Shown here: positions 14,842 through 47,015 of the stretch, in pieces
Position numbering within the stretch: position 1 is the stretch's first letter
How the letters are laid out: the number at the start of each line of letters is the position of its first letter
Source: Paracoccaceae bacterium
GTDB lineage: Bacteria; Pseudomonadota; Alphaproteobacteria; Rhodobacterales; Rhodobacteraceae
Length of the DNA: 52,501 bases
Reading direction: 5' to 3'
Assembly: GCA_007694945.1 (NCBI GenBank)
Contig: REER01000043.1
Location: 1-52,501 of the forward strand
Made by a program: the position numbers and the translations under genes
The notes under the pieces: generated by a model
Databases searched by the model: none
The model's input: only the letters and a program-made list of their open reading frames with translations
What the model was told of the DNA's origin: nothing

Positions 14842-16028
14842 GCAATCGCCTCGGCAATCCGCTGCGCCAAGCGTTGCGCAACCTCGCCCTTGGGCAGGCG
14901 CGGCCAATCCTCGACTCCGGTCTCGGTGACCAGATGTACGGCATTCTCCGCCCCGCCCATGATCCCCGTCGCGGGCGAGACATCATTCGCGACGATCCAG
15001 TCACAGCCCTTGCGCGCGCGCTTGGCGGTTGCATGGGCGATTACCTCCTCGGTCTCGGCGGCAAAACCGATGACCAGTCGCGGGCGTTGGGCGTGGGTGG
15101 AGAGGGTGGCAAGAATATCAGGGTTCTCAGAAAACTCAAGTAATGGAGTGCCCTGCGCAGTTTTCTTCATCTTTTGCGTGAACTCCTGCGTCACTCGCCA
15201 GTCGGCCACCGCAGCAGCACAGACCGCGACCTCGGCGGGCAGCGCTCCAAGCGCAGCCTCCAGCATCTCGCGCGCTGTCTCGACCCGTACGACCTGCACG
15301 CCGTCGGGCGTGGGCACCAAGGACGGGCCCGCCACGAACACCACCTCGGCCCCCAGATCGCGTAGCGCCGCGGCGATCGCCGTGCCCTGCGCGCCGGACG
15401 ATCGGTTGGCGATATAGCGCACCGGATCGATCGGCTCGTGCGTCGGGCCCGAAGTGACCAGCACGCGCCGTCCTGCCAAGGGGCGCGGACCGAAATGCGC
15501 GGCAATCGCGGCGACAATCTCGGTGGGTTCCGCCATCCGGCCCGGCCCATGCTCGCCGCAAGCCATGTCGCCCACATTCGGCCCGACCACCTGCACCCCA
15601 TCGGCGCGAAGTTGCGTAAGGTTGCGCTGCGTCGTCGGGTGCTGCCACATCCGCACATTCATCGCAGGCGCGATCATCACCGGCTTGTCGGTGGCCAGCA
15701 GAAGCGTGCTGGCCAGATCATCGGCCAACCCCGCCACCATGCGCGCCGTCATGTTCGCGGTTGCAGGGGCCACGACCAGCAGATCCGAAGCGCGCGAAAG
15801 CTGGATATGGCCCATCTCGGTCTCGTCTTTCAGGTCGAACAGGTCCTGAAACACCTGCGCCTCGGCCAGCGCCGCGACCGAAAGCGGTGTCACGAATTCC
15901 GCCCCTGCGCGCGTCAGCACCGGCGTCACCTGCACGCCCGCGCGGCGCAACTGGCGGATCAGATCGAGGCATTTATAGGCCGCGATCCCGCCGCCGATAA
16001 TCAATGTGATGCGCTTGCCTGCCAGCAT
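14838..16028 (-). CDS. coaBC: Bifunctional phosphopantothenoylcysteine decarboxylase / phosphopantothenate-cysteine ligase
   Basis: A 396-residue CoaBC of coenzyme A synthesis. CoaC part (1-180): flavin-binding [14 protein letters not shown], the active histidine in [18 protein letters not shown], and the substrate-clamp cysteine in [13 protein letters not shown]. CoaB part (about 185-396): [26 protein letters not shown], and IVANDVS. In E. coli CoaB the segment after SSG reads KMG, with lysine 289 needed for the ligase. Here it reads SSGAQG, so that lysine is alanine. The dut gene overlaps by four bases. Confidence 0.94.
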
Positions 16029-17926: not shown

Positions 17927-19450
17927 ATGGTCGCGCGGGCATTGACAGTCGCCTTCGAGGGGATCGAGGCCCGCCTGATCGAAGTGCAATGCGCGCTCTC
18001 ACCCGGAATGCCCGCGTTCCAGATCGTCGGCCTACCTGACAAGGCCGTGTCCGAGGCGCGCGAGCGCGTGCGCGCGGCGCTCTCGGCGCTGTCCATTGCG
18101 CTGCCTTCAAAGCGGATCACGGTCAATCTCTCGCCCGCTGATCTGCCCAAGGAGGGCTCTCATTTCGACCTGCCCATTGCCATGGCGCTGCTCGCTGCGC
18201 TGGAGATTTTGCCACCTGAAGACGTGGCAGAGACTGTCGCGTTGGGGGAATTGTCACTTGATGGCGCGCTGGTGGCCGTAACGGGCGCCCTCCCGGCGGC
18301 AATGGCGGCGGCAGAGGGGGAGCATACGCTGTTCTGCCCCTCGGGCTGCGGGCCAGAGGCCGCCTGGGTCGATGCCACGCGCGTCTTCGCGCCGAAATCG
18401 CTGATGGAGGTGATCCGCCACTATTCCGGTCAGGCCCCGCTCAGCCCCGCGCGACCCGGCGAAGTACTGCGCAGCGAGGGAGGGCGAGACCTGTTCGACG
18501 TCAAAGGGCAGGAACGCGCCAAGCGCGCGCTGGAGATTGCGGCAGCGGGGCGGCATCACATGTTGATGGTGGGCGCGCCCGGTTCGGGCAAGTCGATGCT
18601 CGCCGCGCGCCTGCCTGGCATCCTGCCCGAGCTGAGCCCCGGTGAGGCGTTGGAAACCTCGATGATCCACTCCATCGCCGGATTGCTGGATCAGGGCGGC
18701 ATCTCGCGCACGCGGCCTTTCCGAGAGCCGCATCACACTGCCTCGGTTGCAGCCATTGTGGGTGGCGGCAAGGGCGCCAAGCCCGGTGAGATTTCGCTGG
18801 CCCATAACGGCGTGCTGTTTCTCGACGAATTCCCCGAATTCCCGCGCATGGTGCTGGAAACCCTGCGCCAGCCCATCGAGACCGGCGAGGTCGTGGTCGC
18901 GCGTGCCAATGCTCATGTGCGCTACCCTTGCCGCTTTCTGCTCGTCGCTGCCGCGAACCCCTGCAAATGTGGTTATCTCTCCGAGCCCGCGCGCGCCTGT
19001 GCTCGTGCGCCAGCCTGTGGCGAGGATTATCTCGGCCGCATCTCAGGGCCTTTGCTTGACCGATTTGACCTGCGGGTCGAGGTGCCGCCAGTGGCTTTCA
19101 CAGACCTCGATCTGCCCCCGTCAGGCGACCCATCGCGCGTGGTCGCCGCCCGTGTCGCCGATGCGCGCAAATGCCAGAGCATGCGGTTTGCACCCCATGC
19201 CGGGATGCGCGTCAATGCGGATGCCGAGGGCGCCTTGCTTGAGGAGATCGCTACGCCCGATGATGAGGGCCGTAAGCTGCTGACACAGGCGGCAGAGCGT
19301 TTTGGCCTGAGCGCGCGCGGCTATCACCGGTTGTTGCGAGTGGCACGGACCATTGCTGACCTGGACCAGAGCGCGAGTGTGCGCGCGCCGCATATGGCCG
19401 AGGCGATCAGCTATCGGCTGATGGCCGCGCCGGAAGCCGTTGCCGGATGA
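17927..19450 (+). CDS. comM: YifB family Mg chelatase-like AAA+ ATPase (ComM)
   Basis: A 507-residue protein. The N-terminal Lon-protease-like domain (VEVQCALSPGMPAFQIVGLPDKAV type) is followed by an AAA+ Mg-chelatase domain with Walker A GAPGSGKSM, Walker B FLDEFPEF, a cysteine cluster around CKCGYLSEPARACARAPACG, and the C-terminal lid. ComM is a helicase that promotes branch migration during natural transformation. I start at the ATG at 17927 after a GAAGGGG site; a TTG 18 bases upstream is possible. Its last 44 bases overlap the convergent esterase gene. Confidence 0.92.
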   Translation: MVARALTVAFEGIEARLIEVQCALSPGMPAFQIVGLPDKAVSEARERVRAALSALSIALPSKRITVNLSPADLPKEGSHFDLPIAMALLAALEILPPEDVAETVALGELSLDGALVAVTGALPAAMAAAEGEHTLFCPSGCGPEAAWVDATRVFAPKSLMEVIRHYSGQAPLSPARPGEVLRSEGGRDLFDVKGQERAKRALEIAAAGRHHMLMVGAPGSGKSMLAARLPGILPELSPGEALETSMIHSIAGLLDQGGISRTRPFREPHHTASVAAIVGGGKGAKPGEISLAHNGVLFLDEFPEFPRMVLETLRQPIETGEVVVARANAHVRYPCRFLLVAAANPCKCGYLSEPARACARAPACGEDYLGRISGPLLDRFDLRVEVPPVAFTDLDLPPSGDPSRVVAARVADARKCQSMRFAPHAGMRVNADAEGALLEEIATPDDEGRKLLTQAAERFGLSARGYHRLLRVARTIADLDQSASVRAPHMAEAISYRLMAAPEAVAG

Positions 19451-41907: not shown

Positions 41908-43728
41908 TCAGGCGCTGGCGCGCGCCTGCCGTTTGCGCTCATGCGGGTCAAGGAAGCGTTTGCGCAGCCGGATCGCCTTGGGCGTCACTTCCACCAGTTC
42001 GTCATCGTCGATATAAGCAATCGCCTGTTCCAGCGACATGATCACCGGCGGCGTCAGCTTGACGGCATCATCCGAACCCGAGGCGCGGACATTGGTCAAC
42101 TTCTTGCCCTTGAGCGGGTTCACTTCCAGATCATTGTCACGGCTATGCTCACCGATGATCATACCCTGATAGACCGGGTCCTGCGGGTTGATGAACATCC
42201 GCCCGCGTTCTTCCAGGTTCCACAGCGCATAGGCGACGGCCGTGCCATCCTCCATGGAAATCAGCACCCCCTCGCGCCGCCCCGGAATGGTACCGCGATA
42301 AGGCGCCCATTCATGGAAAACGCGGTTCAGCACACCCGTTCCGCGCGTGTCGGTCAGGAACTCGCCATGGTAGCCGATCAGTCCGCGCGAGGGCACATGC
42401 GCTATGATACGTGTCTTGCCGCTACCTGCGGGTTTCATCTCGACCAGATCGCCGCGGCGAGGGCCGGTCAGTTTCTCGATCACTGTGCCGGTGTAGTCGT
42501 CATCGACATCGATGGTGACTTCCTCGACCGGCTCGAGCCTCGCGCCGCCTTCATCGCGCATCAGCACGCGAGGGCGCGAGACCGAGAGTTCAAACCCCTC
42601 GCGGCGCATGTTCTCGATCAACACGCCCATCTGCAGTTCACCGCGTCCGGCCACGTCGAAGGCTTCGCCGCCCGGCGTGTCGGTCACCTTGATCGCGACA
42701 TTGACCTCGGCCTCGCGCATCAGCCGCTCGCGGATGACGCGGGATTGGACCTTGGACCCATCACGACCGGCCAAGGGCGAATCATTGATGCCGAATGTCA
42801 CCGAGATCGTCGGCGGGTCGATGGGCTGTGCGGGCAGCGCCGTGTCGACCTCCAGTGCGCAAAGCGTGTCGGCAACGGTCGCTTTCGACATGCCGGCCAG
42901 TGTCACGATATCGCCAGCCTCCGCCGAGTCGATGGGCGCCTGCGCCAGACCGCGGAAGGCCAGAACCTTGGTCACGCGGAACTGCTCGATTTTCTTGCTG
43001 TCGCGCGACAGCGCTTTGATCGTCTCACCTGCTTTTAGCCGGCCCGACTCTACCCGGCCTGTCAGAATCCGCCCCAGATAGGGGTCGGCCGAAAGCGTCG
43101 TCGCAAGCATCCGGAAGGGCTCGGCCCGGCGTGCAATCTGCGCAGGCGCAGGCACATGGGCGACCACCAGATCGAACAGCGCCGACATATCCTTGCGCTG
43201 CCCATCCATCTCCGCATCTGCCCAGCCATTGATTCCCGAGGCGTAAAGCACAGGGAAATCAAGCTGTTCATCGCTCGCACCCAGATTAGCGAACAGGTCG
43301 AACACCTCATTCAGCGCCCGGTCAGGTTCTGCAGCGGGCTTGTCGACCTTGTTGAGCACCACAATCGGCCGCAACCCCAGCGCCAGCGCTTTCGCGGTCA
43401 CGAATTTTGTCTGCGGCATCGGACCTTCAGCGGCATCGACCAGCAACACAACCCCATCGACCATCGACAGAATCCGCTCCACCTCGCCACCGAAATCGGC
43501 ATGGCCAGGTGTGTCGACGATATTGATCCGCGTGTCCTTCCACTCGACCGAAGTCGCCTTGGCAAGGATCGTGATGCCGCGCTCGCGTTCCAGATCATTG
43601 CTGTCCATGGCGCGCACGGCCACGGCCTGGTTCTCGCGAAACGCCCCCGATTGCTTCAGAAGTTCGTCCACCAGCGTGGTCTTGCCATGGTCGACATGGG
43701 CGATGATCGCGATATTGCGAAGGGTCAT
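41908..43728 (-). CDS. typA: Translational GTPase TypA/BipA
   Basis: A 606-residue ribosome-associated GTPase. G motifs are [10 protein letters not shown] (G1), RGITI (G2), [14 protein letters not shown] (G3) and NKVDKP (G4), followed by EF-Tu-like domain 2 and EF-G-like domains III and V, then the BipA C-terminal domain ending [13 protein letters not shown]. It helps 50S assembly and stress adaptation. It is divergent from the AerR/PpaA-like gene, sharing a 141-base region. The long open frame on the plus strand across this gene is a shadow. Confidence 0.97.
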
Positions 43729-43869
43729 TGGTCCGGCCTTTTCGGGATTCTGCGCTGCCGCATTAGCGCAAGTCCAGCGGAAAGGCCAGTCACGAGTCGA
43801 GGACGGTTAGTCCGCTGACTCCTTGACGAAACCAATGCGCGCAATAAGTCGATCGAAGGTGACATTGTC

Positions 43870-44571
43870 GTGAACCTGCCTGAACTCATGGACCATCTGA
43901 CGCGCGATCTGATCGAGTCCGTTCTCTCCGGAGATTACATATGCGCATTGCGAATTTGCCGCGATGCCCTCGCGCGTCCCGAGATCGGACCAGAGCGAAT
44001 TCATCAGATCGTGATACTGCCGACAATCCGCGCTGTCGGTCAAGCCTGGGCGGATGACTCCGCGAGTTTTGAACAGGCATCCCTGGCACATATCCTTCTG
44101 CATCGGCTGCTAGAGTATGTCGCGCGCAGCAACGGGGCGGCAACTGGTATGCGACAGGCATGGCCTGTCCACGACGCGCGGGTGATGGTCACCGTCGCTC
44201 CGGGCGATACGCATGATTTCGGCGCGCAGATTCTGTCACAGCACCTTCGGCTCTCGGGCTGGCCCGTCACGTTTTTCGGGCATCGACAACGGGAAAGGGT
44301 GGTGCCAACGCTTGCGCAGCAGCGCTACTCGGCCTTGGCCATTTCGGTCAGTTGTGACGAGAATCTGGCTGGGCTGGCAGATTTCGTCATGACCAGCCGA
44401 ATGGCAAGCACCAGCCCCAAGCTGCATCTCATGATCGGCGGCGCTGCGATTCAGCCTCCCTTCGATCAATATGACTTTCTGGGCGCGGACCGGGTAGGGC
44501 TCGCAATTGACGAAGTGGCATCTTATCTATCAAATATGACTCCAGCGATCCCTGCCGACAGGTGGAATTGA
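43870..44571 (+). CDS. Cobalamin-binding regulator of the AerR/PpaA type
   Basis: A 233-residue protein. The N-terminal helical domain (about 1-95) has the family pattern IRAVGQAWADDSASFEQASL. The B12-binding Rossmann domain follows, with D113-x-H115-x2-G118 (GDTHDFG), S-V-S (159-161) and GG (190-191), the DxHxxG...SxS...GG signature of base-off/His-on cobalamin. This is the AerR/PpaA (SCHIC-like) architecture; those proteins are antirepressors of PpsR/CrtJ. It starts with GTG, ends one base before a PpsR-like gene, and lies away from any visible photosynthesis gene. Ligand and partner are inferred. Confidence 0.82.
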   Translation: MNLPELMDHLTRDLIESVLSGDYICALRICRDALARPEIGPERIHQIVILPTIRAVGQAWADDSASFEQASLAHILLHRLLEYVARSNGAATGMRQAWPVHDARVMVTVAPGDTHDFGAQILSQHLRLSGWPVTFFGHRQRERVVPTLAQQRYSALAISVSCDENLAGLADFVMTSRMASTSPKLHLMIGGAAIQPPFDQYDFLGADRVGLAIDEVASYLSNMTPAIPADRWN

Positions 44572-44572
44572 C

Positions 44573-45337
44573 ATGACGATTACGACCAGTGACATCGCAC
44601 GCATGTCACAGCGCCTCGCGGCCTTCCCAACGAAGGTCTCCAGTGAGCTGGTGCTCGCGGCGGCCGATCTCTGCATCATGGTAGATGCAGATTTGCGCGT
44701 GCAGGAGGTCTTTTTCGGCAATGCGCTTGAGGACGTCAGTTGCGCGCGTTGGGATGGTGCGTTTCTGCGCAGCGTCGTGGCGCCCGAAGGGCAGCGCAAG
44801 ATTGACCTGCTCTGGCAGGAGGGCGCCGATGCCATCTCCGGGTGGCGGCATCTCAATTTCCGGACCCACCGCGGAGACGAAACCCTGCCGCTTCTGATAA
44901 AGCGCATCGATGTCGGAGGCGGGGCGTCGATCCTGCTTGGGCGCGATCTGCGCCCTGCTGTGCGGATGCAGGAGCAGTTCAATGCCGCCATGATGGAGAT
45001 GGAGCAGAGCTATCGGGATTCCTTCGATGATCCATTCGCACCGCCTCCCGCCCCTTCCCTGACAGATGTAAGCGGCAACGATCACGGCAATTGCAACGCA
45101 TCAAATCTGCCTGCTGCAGAGGCGCAATTGCAGATGCTGGTCAATCAGACAATGGGCGAACTGGGACGGCAGCCTGTCGCTCAGATCGTTTCGCAAACGG
45201 CAAAGGTGCTGGAGGATATGTGCATCCGCGAAGCCTATGCCCAAAGCCAGTATGATTTGCAGAAGACAGCAGAGGTGTTGGGCATGAATGCCGACGACCT
45301 TGCCCAGCGTATGGTGGCCTTGCCGCGCAAGCCCTGA
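44573..45337 (+). CDS. Truncated PpsR/CrtJ-like protein: N-domain plus Fis-type C-terminus
   Basis: A 254-residue protein. Residues 24-130 match the PpsR N-domain, including ASILLGRDLRPAVRMQEQF (PpsR has ILMLGRDLRPIAEVQQQL). The linker helix 128-150 follows, then a low-complexity stretch, then a Fis-type helix-turn-helix region (197-250; VAQIVSQTAKVLEDMCIREA against PpsR DIVAETTDVVEKMCIETA). Both internal PAS domains of PpsR (about 464 residues in total) are absent. C217 matches the redox cysteine C424 of Rhodobacter PpsR. The recognition helix reads NADDLAQRMVAL rather than SRQSLYVKLRKFG, so DNA binding is doubtful. Confidence 0.82.
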   Translation: MTITTSDIARMSQRLAAFPTKVSSELVLAAADLCIMVDADLRVQEVFFGNALEDVSCARWDGAFLRSVVAPEGQRKIDLLWQEGADAISGWRHLNFRTHRGDETLPLLIKRIDVGGGASILLGRDLRPAVRMQEQFNAAMMEMEQSYRDSFDDPFAPPPAPSLTDVSGNDHGNCNASNLPAAEAQLQMLVNQTMGELGRQPVAQIVSQTAKVLEDMCIREAYAQSQYDLQKTAEVLGMNADDLAQRMVALPRKP

Positions 45338-45345
45338 GGCCCGCG

Positions 45346-45996
45346 TCAGACGGCGATGTAGCGATCACGGCGGTGGTTGATGGCGATGATCGCATTGAGG
45401 ACCAAGGCCCCCAAGAGCGACCAGAGCACCAGTATTGGCTCCAGCAGGGTCATGGCGACCGCAAACACCACCAGATCGAAGCCAAACTGCACCCAGCCCG
45501 CAGGGAAGCCTGTACGCTCCTGCAGCCAATAGGCCAGAATGCCAATGCCGCCAAGGCTCGCCCGATGGCGGAAGATTGCCAGCAACCCCGCGCCCGCCAC
45601 CATCCCGAAGAGCACGGAAGCCACCGCCGGATGCACTGGGTTGATGCTGATCAGCCACGGGATGATCATGGAAAAGCCCGAGATCAGGGCCACGGCGATA
45701 AAGGTCTTGATAGCAAAGGCTGCCCCGATCTGCCGCCAGGCGAGCCAGTAGAAGGGCAGGTTGATGACGAAGAAGACCGGCCCGAAACCCCAGCCCATGG
45801 TATAGGCGATGAGCACAGCCAGACCTGCGGTCTGGCCCGTCACCAAGCCGGCGCCAGTCAGGATCATGACGCCGAACGCACACATGACGGTGCCGAACAC
45901 CAGCCCCTGCGCATCCTCGAAGGGCGTGTGGGTCTCGGCGGCGCTCGCAGTTTCAGACCTTGGCGCTGAAGATGTTGATAACGACAATCCCTGCAA
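45346..45996 (-). CDS. YitT family membrane protein
   Basis: A 216-residue protein with five membrane segments of the YitT/DUF161 type: EDAQGLVFGTVMCAFGVMILTGAGLVTGQTAGLAVLI is the characteristic start of the family. The DUF2179 domain found in longer members is absent. Function is unknown. The most upstream start is a TTG at 45996, overlapping the SMR gene by 44 bases; a start closer to the first helix cannot be excluded. It converges with the PpsR-like gene, with eight bases between stops. Confidence 0.83.
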   Translation of the reverse strand: MQGLSLSTSSAPRSETASAAETHTPFEDAQGLVFGTVMCAFGVMILTGAGLVTGQTAGLAVLIAYTMGWGFGPVFFVINLPFYWLAWRQIGAAFAIKTFIAVALISGFSMIIPWLISINPVHPAVASVLFGMVAGAGLLAIFRHRASLGGIGILAYWLQERTGFPAGWVQFGFDLVVFAVAMTLLEPILVLWSLLGALVLNAIIAINHRRDRYIAV

Positions 45997-46276
45997 TTAT
46001 CAGCCCGATGCCCAGCAGGGCGGGTGCATCAAGCCGCTGGCCGAAGACGAACCAGCCGATGAGGGCGATGAAGCAGATGCCGAGCCCCGACCAGATGGCA
46101 TAGGCCACGCCGACCGGGATCACCCGCAGCACGATGGCCAGCAGCCAGAAGGACAGGGCATAAGCCAGCACCACGACCAGCGCGGGCAAAGCCCGAGTCA
46201 TGCCGTCGCTGGCCTTGAGCGCCGTGGTGCCGATGGTCTCGAACAGGATCGCCACGCCAAGATAGAGCCAATGCAT
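45953..46276 (-). CDS. Small multidrug resistance (SMR) family transporter
   Basis: A 107-residue, four-helix protein starting MHWLYLGVAILFETIGTTALKAS. It has the conserved membrane glutamate E14 and the loop GVAYAIWSGLGICFIALIGW with the SMR tryptophan. Members export quaternary amines, guanidinium or polyamines; the substrate is not predictable. A perfect AGGAGG lies seven bases before the ATG at 46276. Its 3' end overlaps the YitT start by 44 bases. The upstream M48 gene ends 13 bases before it. Confidence 0.92.
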   Translation of the reverse strand: MHWLYLGVAILFETIGTTALKASDGMTRALPALVVVLAYALSFWLLAIVLRVIPVGVAYAIWSGLGICFIALIGWFVFGQRLDAPALLGIGLIIAGIVVINIFSAKV

Positions 46277-46289
46277 GTGAACCCTCCTG

Positions 46290-47015
46290 TCAGATCGGTT
46301 GCCCCGCGCGCACCCGCGCGACGGTGCGCTCGACTTCGCGCAGCCGTTCGGCATTGGGCGGGTGCGTGGCCAGAAAGCGGTTGCCGGGGTCGGGGATGCG
46401 GCGGAAGATTTCGGCCCCGCGCAACGCATCATAGCCCGCGCGTTCGGCAATCAGCGCGCCAAGGCGGTCGGCTTCGAGTTCGATCGGTTTGGAATAGCGC
46501 CGCGCACCGACCGTGGCCGAGACATCCATGATCTGCCGCGCGGTGGCCTCATCCGCACCGATCAGAAGTGCGGCCACCCCGCCCAGAATCGCCCCGCGCT
46601 GTGCCTCGCGCTGGATCAGCGGCAGATGATCACCGATATGGTGCCCGGCCTCATGGCCGAAGATGAGGGCGATCTCGTCAGGGGTCTGCAACTCGCGGAT
46701 CAAAGCGTCTGTAAAGGCGATGATCGGGCGCCCGTCGCGGTCGCGGGTATGGAAGGCGTTCGGGGGCTGGCTGGGGCGGTCATCGAGGATGACGGTGAAT
46801 TCGCAGCGCAGTTGCGGGCTACGCTCGCGGCAGACCTCGGTCGCCACCGGGGACATGCGGCGCACCACGGCATCGAATTGCGCGCGTGTGACAGTTGCCG
46901 CTGGGCGCGCGGGGGTGCTGGTTACTGGCGAAGGTGGTGGGGCGATGGCACAGCTTGCAACCAGCAGCAGGGCGAGGAGGGCTGCAAACCGGCGAAAAAT
47001 GAGAGCGGCTGGCAT
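46290..47015 (-). CDS. M48 family metallopeptidase, lipoprotein
   Basis: A 241-residue lipoprotein: MPAALIFRRFAALLALLLVASC with the lipid cysteine C22. The zinc motif HEAGHH is at about 120, the third ligand glutamate is in ELEADRLG, and the C-terminal RRIPDPGNRFLATHPPNAERL is typical of the M48C (LoiP/BepA-like) group. It probably degrades or helps fold envelope proteins in the periplasm. It lies just upstream of the SMR gene. Confidence 0.9.
   Translation of the reverse strand: MPAALIFRRFAALLALLLVASCAIAPPPSPVTSTPARPAATVTRAQFDAVVRRMSPVATEVCRERSPQLRCEFTVILDDRPSQPPNAFHTRDRDGRPIIAFTDALIRELQTPDEIALIFGHEAGHHIGDHLPLIQREAQRGAILGGVAALLIGADEATARQIMDVSATVGARRYSKPIELEADRLGALIAERAGYDALRGAEIFRRIPDPGNRFLATHPPNAERLREVERTVARVRAGQPI

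Follow-up and report, generated by a model that had tools for sequence, protein, structure and literature searches.

Results

A B12-type protein gene directly followed by a short PpsR-related gene

The window, a stretch of 52,501 nucleotides, belongs to the draft genome (145 contigs) of a relative of the purple bacterium Roseinatronobacter. The initial annotation had described two adjacent open reading frames, with one base between the stop codon of the first and the start codon of the second, flanked by typA and yitT. The sequence bore out the frames and their spacing, and profile searches identified both neighbours. We call the first gene AerR2 and the second mini-PpsR. The features of the locus are as follows.

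41908 to 43728, minus strand: typA, left neighbour (TIGR01394, 924 bits, above the cut-off)
43870 to 44571, plus strand: AerR2, GTG start, 233 amino acids; AerR/PpaA-type protein with B12-binding domains, a four-helix bundle plus an alpha/beta domain
44569 to 44572, plus strand: TGA stop codon of AerR2 and the single base C (44572) before the ATG of mini-PpsR
44573 to 45337, plus strand: mini-PpsR, ATG start, 254 amino acids; PpsR relative without PAS1 and PAS2
44630 to 44944, plus strand: N-domain of mini-PpsR, PAS-like fold (residues about 20-124), with a WRHLNF signature at 91-96
44942 to 45025, plus strand: RDLRP and the first part of the Q-linker helix of mini-PpsR (residues about 124-151), its AerR/AppA-facing side changed
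45026 to 45112, plus strand: spacer of mini-PpsR replacing PAS1 and PAS2 (residues about 152-180), probably disordered (pLDDT below 50 at 153-180)
45113 to 45322, plus strand: C-terminal part of mini-PpsR, with helix 181-197, helix 202-224 (in which Cys217 lies) and an HTH of degenerate Fis type (helices 229-236 and 240-247)
45346 to 45996, minus strand: YitT-family membrane protein gene, right neighbour (PF02588, 86 bits)

The same TGAC-ATG junction between the two genes was found at loci L054 and L055. A sigma-70 promoter scan of positions 43500-45600 found no promoter. Strict TGT-N12-ACA sites were absent from the 400 bases upstream of the pair at all nine loci inspected (the contig of genome G004 is cut there), and control of the pair by PpsR sites was therefore rejected. 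The whole window contains three TGT-N12-ACA sites, against 4.1 expected.

AerR2 keeps the residues that hold cobalamin

AerR2 matched the Pfam families B12-binding (5.4e-10, 39.6 bits, cut-off 32.1) and B12-binding_2 (6.9e-5, 23.4 bits, cut-off 23), and a sequence search of the PDB returned CarH as the best match and AerR (7te2) as the next, in agreement with the initial assignment of this protein as an AerR/PpaA-like cobalamin protein. Its AlphaFold2 model (mean pLDDT 77.5) has helices at residues 3-19, 23-34, 40-61 and 67-90, forming a four-helix bundle that is followed by an alpha/beta part, and the Foldseek matches of the model included B12 proteins, with AerR 7te2 at rank 15. The model of the heme-binding SCHIC domain, PF21966, gave 13.3 bits, below its cut-off of 28.6.

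Residues 113-118 of AerR2 read DxHxxG, a variant of the lower-ligand motif ExHxxG. Among ten AerR2 proteins, H115 and G118 are invariant and the glutamate is replaced by aspartate in eight, including that of the window. For the conserved glycine near the nucleotide tail, G190 and G191 are present in all ten; of the W/F cap over the corrin, W60 is present in all nine with a letter at that position and F67 in eight of the ten, F67 being found in just 27 of 50 canonical AerRs. The cobalamin-holding residues of R. capsulatus AerR are thus present in AerR2, from which we infer that it binds cobalamin.

The AerR2 of the window is a short form, without the N-terminal extension that carries His10 in the long form of AerR, and the 17 open codons upstream of its start contain no ATG, GTG or TTG. 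For the short form SAerR, the binding of several cobalamins is light-independent (PMC6199135). The AerR2 of the window is likewise short and may therefore respond more to cobalamin status than to light; by this analogy, cobalamin rather than light is a plausible signal for it. Seven of nine AerR2s (L045-L050, L178) have a CxxW-bearing N-terminal extension, absent from that of the window, in which the cysteine might take the part of upper cobalt ligand that His10 has in LAerR.

When the window was compared with the corresponding locus of G004 (L044), identity per 100 bases was 75-80% over positions 44050-44450 and 86-99% over 44450-46450, so that the step, at about 44450, falls inside AerR2. 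Synonymous divergence between the two was 0.79 for AerR2 and 0.12 for mini-PpsR. The step and the unequal divergence suggest a likely recombination edge, which would make the sensor of the pair a mosaic.

mini-PpsR is related to PpsR but lacks PAS1 and PAS2

The best NCBIfam match of mini-PpsR was PpsR-CrtJ (TIGR02040, 1.5e-17), at 63.8 bits against a cut-off of 275.4, and its N-domain corresponds to positions 3-126 of that model. The best PDB match by sequence was PpsR (4hh3/4hh2). Its AlphaFold2 model is of modest confidence (mean pLDDT 65.5); the top seven Foldseek matches, with E values of 0.001 or less, were all PpsR. The PpsR model matched all ten short forms, and two other families matched one member each (E 0.005-0.008). 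An unrelated PAS-HTH family was therefore rejected, PpsR being best by profile, by PDB sequence and by fold.

Both the alignment to the genome's own PpsR and the AlphaFold2 model showed that PAS1 and PAS2 are absent, so that the initial description of a PpsR/CrtJ relative with an N-domain and without these two domains was correct. It had also been proposed that the linker and the Fis-type end are kept. This was true of the start of the linker, whose helix is modelled over only about 25 residues (127-151), of the HTH fold and of its cysteine; the recognition-helix residues were not kept. Over its N-domain and linker, the mini-PpsR of the window shares only 17-29% identity with 54 full-length PpsRs. 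Because several PpsR-defining features are absent from mini-PpsR, we filed it as PpsR-related and not as PpsR.

In a tree, the short proteins formed one group apart from the 54 full-length PpsRs, with long branches whose joins may be false and with an unsure placement of the proteins of G274 and G425. The short proteins do not nest with the PpsRs of their genus, and a recent truncation of the resident PpsR is therefore not supported.

The HTH scaffold is retained and the presumed reading face largely lost

Ten short proteins were compared with 54 full-length PpsRs, the distinct sequences among the 69 that passed out of 99 candidate ORFs; the short protein of G035, a C-terminal piece at a contig edge, was left out of the ten. 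The RQSLY recognition helix, which we take to be the DNA-reading helix of PpsR, was present in 52 of the 54 full-length proteins and in none of the ten short ones. Conversely, WRHLNF was found in all ten short proteins and in none of the 54. In the numbering of mini-PpsR, N228, R229, R240, Q241 and Y244 were each invariant in the full-length set and R248 was present in 53 of 54, whereas the short proteins had D at 228 in every case, retained R229, Q241 and Y244 in none, and retained R240 and R248 in one each. The net charge of residues 226-250 was +2 to +5 in full-length PpsRs and -4 to 0 in nine of the ten short proteins, the exception being that of G425 at +3.

The HTH cysteine was kept in 64 of 64 proteins (10 of 10 short and 54 of 54 full-length). 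Cys217 of mini-PpsR aligns with the sole fully conserved HTH cysteine of the 54 PpsRs and, with CrtJ itself outside the alignment, is taken as the equivalent of Cys420, the redox-active HTH cysteine of CrtJ (PMC9144470). By these comparisons, the short proteins retain the HTH scaffold but have lost the greater part of the presumed reading face, and mini-PpsR probably no longer reads PpsR sites. The initial annotation implied that mini-PpsR is an output with the DNA-reading mode of PpsR; this was not supported, given that most recognition-helix residues have changed. Position 246 is basic in all ten short proteins (R in nine, K in one), and the G425 protein retains R240 and R248 together with a positive HTH, so that some DNA binding may persist, or its loss may be confined to part of the family.

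The modelled contact faces appear changed on both partners

Six residues of the CrtJ Q-linker (Q133, L136, Q140, E144, Y147 and R151) face AerR, and the action of AerR on the Q-linker of CrtJ/PpsR rests on models that follow the AppA-PpsR structure (PMC9144470). These positions were located in the short proteins by spacing, CrtJ being outside the alignment. Q133 was retained in nine of the ten short proteins, E144 in seven, Y147 in three, Q140 in one and L136 in none, and R151 in four of the nine with a letter there; the corresponding counts in the 54 full-length PpsRs were 54 each for Q133, L136, Q140 and E144, 44 for Y147 and 53 for R151. L136 was replaced by F, Y or W in all ten.

On the AerR side, the controls were 50 canonical AerRs scoring above 60 bits and chosen by similarity to the genome's own AerR. 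In helix 4, R76 was present in 50 of 50 canonical proteins and in none of the ten AerR2s, and R82, present in 46 of 50, was E or D in all ten AerR2s. The helix-4 residues modelled as touching the Q-linker are Thr105, Ser109 and Gln112 (PMC9144470), whose equivalents in AerR2, assigned by offset from Trp94/Phe101, are positions 71, 75 and 78. Here S/T, S and Q were found in 5, 5 and 1 of the ten AerR2s and in 49, 13 and 46 of the 50 canonical AerRs, respectively; the AerR2 of the window has S71, I75 and H78. With Ser in only 13 of 50 canonical proteins, position 75 says nothing. R76 and R82 lie outside the contacts named in PMC9144470, and among the changed helix-4 residues only Q78 (Gln112) is named there.

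The pattern fits a drift of AerR2 and mini-PpsR away from the ordinary pair while the B12 residues stay. PAS2 binds the Q-linker in the PpsR tetramer (PMC3949515), so the loss of PAS2 may itself explain the changes in the Q-linker of mini-PpsR, which could follow simply from it.

The short pair is additional to an ordinary AerR-PpsR pair

The genome has a full-length PpsR on its own contig C145 (407 bits, above the model cut-off), with an AerR-type gene just upstream. This contig also carries acsF, puhB, puhA, bchM and bchE, and reaction-centre genes are present in the genome. The idea that the short pair represents the genome's only AerR and PpsR, with domains lost by sequencing error, was rejected on account of this separate full pair. 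With the C145 pair present and the short pair conserved elsewhere, the initial proposal of a second module beside a normal AerR-PpsR pair is a fair reading. Among the ten carriers whose ppsR region was retrieved, nine have an intact full-length PpsR, and in the tenth (G004) the gene runs off the contig. The genome's own photosynthesis cluster (L052) has paired TGT-N12-ACA sites at 15419 and 15561, before the canonical aerR, and at 17994 and 18019, just before the bchE frame.

The pair occurs in three genera and is under purifying selection

Of the 37 genomes of the genus, eight, including that of the window, carry both genes with the AerR-type gene first, and two further genera have them as well, giving at least 10 genomes in three genera. 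With mini-PpsR as the query, the short form was found in 9 of the 37 genus genomes, that of G035 being cut by a contig edge. With AerR2 as the query, eight genus genomes matched at 263-462 bits and all other matches were at or below 66 bits; two of these weaker matches are contig-edge pieces resembling AerR2, one being the other half of the G004 protein and one from G028. The G028 piece (C11, L182:1-323) is a 107-amino-acid AerR2-like N-terminal fragment with CxxWL at a contig edge, and G028 may carry the pair. Another protein that resembles AerR and has a B12-binding domain was seen in L185 (G013:C148, 831-1673), where it adjoins a TspO-family gene, and in L184 (G028:C5).

A family survey of 394 genomes, mostly one per genus, gave at least three short forms, of which those of G274 and G425 were new; a short match in G388 was discarded as an ordinary PpsR cut at contig edges. 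The G274 and G425 proteins scored above 200 bits, against at most 83 bits for full-length PpsRs, with a model that includes both, so that their scores are high by construction. When the model was built from the genus alone, their scores were 50 and 44 bits, respectively, amid full-length PpsRs, and they were separated from these by their short frames. A survey of the class with the model that includes both found no short form among 385 genomes besides the window's own. A plasmid collection contained one, in Roseinatronobacter sp. S2 (G021); a second match there was an annotated ppsR of Sulfitobacter and was set aside. The S2 pair lies on a 612,909-base replicon recorded as complete, where the two genes are annotated as 'cobalamin-dependent protein' and 'hypothetical protein'.

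In all ten pairs AerR2 precedes mini-PpsR, and both genes lie on one strand. The distance between the genes is one base in G000, G004 and G017, two in G020 and three in G274, and the genes overlap in G012, G021, G027 and G425, with start codons chosen in this analysis for some of these overlaps. In G022, an IS1595-type transposase gene lies between them on the opposite strand (L049:10293-11279). The dN/dS of the pair genes was 0.13-0.34 in four comparisons by two methods, indicating that the pair is under purifying selection. Reaction-centre matches were found in 7 of 9 carriers and in 20 of 28 non-carriers of the genus, a difference too weak to argue for a link between the pair and phototrophy; the two carriers without a match, G027 and G035, have completeness values of 79% and 71%.

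The pair moves between sites

At the yitT loci of the genus, typA adjoins yitT directly in 22 of 28, five, including the window, hold the pair or its edge at this site, and one has other genes. In three carriers (G012, G021 and G022) the typA-yitT site is empty and the pair is found at another place. That of G012 and G021 adjoins cycA and hemA (2 of 30 cytochrome loci examined), and in G021 puhE, acsF, puhC, puhB and puhA come after it. G274 belongs to another genus and has the pair between bchO on one side and SOUL, cytochrome c, hemA and acsF genes on the other, and in G425 transposase genes are near it. The pair thus moves between sites. The initial annotation had placed it outside a photosynthesis cluster, which holds for this genome and not for the family, because in three of ten carriers (G012, G021 and G274) it lies in or beside such a cluster, next to genes for cytochrome c, hemA and acsF.

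Discussion

PpsR/CrtJ is a main repressor of purple-bacterial photosynthesis. As in the AerR-CrtJ/PpaA-PpsR pair of Rhodobacter capsulatus, R. sphaeroides and Dinoroseobacter shibae, the gene for a protein with B12-binding domains lies here directly before a PpsR-type gene, and the lower-ligand His motif, the W/F cap, the N-domain, the start of the Q-linker and the HTH cysteine are common to both. Unlike that pair, the one described here lacks PAS1, PAS2 and RQSLY, has apparently changed contact faces on both proteins, and is an addition to the ordinary pair, not a replacement for it. AerR2 resembles AppA of R. sphaeroides, a SCHIC-domain antirepressor that binds the Q-linker of PpsR, in its four-helix and alpha/beta layout and presumably in its docking helix, but it keeps the cobalamin residues, falls below the SCHIC cut-off, has no BLUF domain and has a short PpsR as its partner. 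HP1 (Rru_A0625) of Rhodospirillum rubrum is likewise a reduced, unusual member of the AerR/PpsR set; there it is the AerR-like partner, beside ppsR, that is reduced, without a recognisable B12 domain (PMC10734443), whereas here it is PpsR. LdaP of D. shibae is also an extra antirepressor beside PpaA that acts on PpsR, but it is a LOV-domain protein and no PpsR relative (PMC10890935). Engineered truncations of PpsR have been described (PMC3949515). A literature search by title and abstract beginning, with subscription papers mostly outside its scope, returned no natural PpsR lacking PAS1 and PAS2.

In R. sphaeroides PpsR, dimers form through the N-Q-PAS1 part and tetramers are supported by PAS2, and the Q-linker is the docking site of AppA (PMC3949515). 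Set against this architecture, AerR2 would bind cobalamin and dock on the Q-linker helix of mini-PpsR. Without PAS2, mini-PpsR would form no PpsR-type tetramers, and with its altered recognition helix it would not read TGT-N12-ACA sites; if both hold, it would act by protein contact. Its N-domain, linker start and scaffold HTH could dimerise and bind an AerR-type partner while failing to read DNA. Since nine of ten carriers have an intact PpsR, the resident PpsR would be the simplest target. Joined to it through the N-domain, mini-PpsR could form mixed dimers with little affinity for DNA, controlled by AerR2 and B12, and so possibly be a brake on PpsR. Our preferred reading, to which we give a probability of roughly 0.4, is therefore a dedicated B12-responsive pair in which the short PpsR acts by protein contact, likeliest on the resident PpsR.

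A more detailed form of this reading is more doubtful. Here, mini-PpsR would be a DNA-blind, microProtein-like paralogue that cobalamin-loaded AerR2 holds or releases, and its mixed dimers with PpsR would block tetramers and DNA binding, so that B12 would provide a second, movable control of photosynthesis. The proposed principle, a shortened paralogue that poisons the complexes of the full protein, is that of plant and animal microProteins (PMC6003976, PMC4807768), though as an analogy only and not one drawn from bacteria of this group. The low identity of the N-domain and linker to full-length PpsRs, together with the signature of their own, means that mini-PpsR may dimerise only with itself.

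An insulated circuit or an AerR sink fits the data nearly as well as the targeting of PpsR. In the former, mini-PpsR would pair only with itself and AerR2 and would act on genes other than those of photosynthesis with a changed DNA specificity. The changed contact faces modelled on both partners, the grouping of the short proteins apart from the 54 full-length PpsRs, the non-photosynthesis neighbours in the window, the basic residue at position 246 in all ten and the basic HTH of G425 are all consistent with such a circuit. We nevertheless regard it as unlikely, because most recognition-helix residues are gone, residues 226-250 are net negative in eight of the ten proteins, and three of the ten carriers have the pair in or beside a photosynthesis cluster.

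It is slightly less likely still that mini-PpsR serves as a B12-gated sink, binding AerR2 or the canonical AerR and thereby shifting the amount of AerR free for PpsR without touching PpsR or DNA. The retention of Q133 in nine of ten and of E144 in seven of ten short proteins is perhaps enough for some docking of AerR, and the genes are co-directional and touching in nine of ten pairs; the other AerR-facing residues are lost, however, and docking of the canonical AerR therefore looks weak.

That mini-PpsR is a decaying copy of PpsR without function is very improbable: the PAS domains and the recognition helix have been lost, and a transposase gene of the IS1595 type separates the two genes in G022, but the dN/dS values of 0.13-0.34, the open frames in ten of ten, the shared invariant residues (WRHLNF, Cys217) and the same gene order in three genera speak against decay. 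An assembly or sequencing error in an ordinary ppsR can be dismissed almost entirely, because, although the assembly is a draft in 145 contigs, a separate full-length PpsR lies on C145 and the short form recurs in nine other genomes, including the S2 replicon recorded as complete.

Returning to the preferred reading, a B12-responsive pair acting by protein contact, these results suggest a second control layer in which contact between proteins may take the place of direct binding to DNA. With its N-domain, linker start and HTH scaffold without the usual recognition residues, and its own B12-type partner, mini-PpsR offers a natural test of the sensing, dimerising and repressing parts of PpsR. 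Should PpsR be its target, evolution would here have produced an inhibitor of this family of repressors, which might also serve as a small tool responsive to B12 or light.
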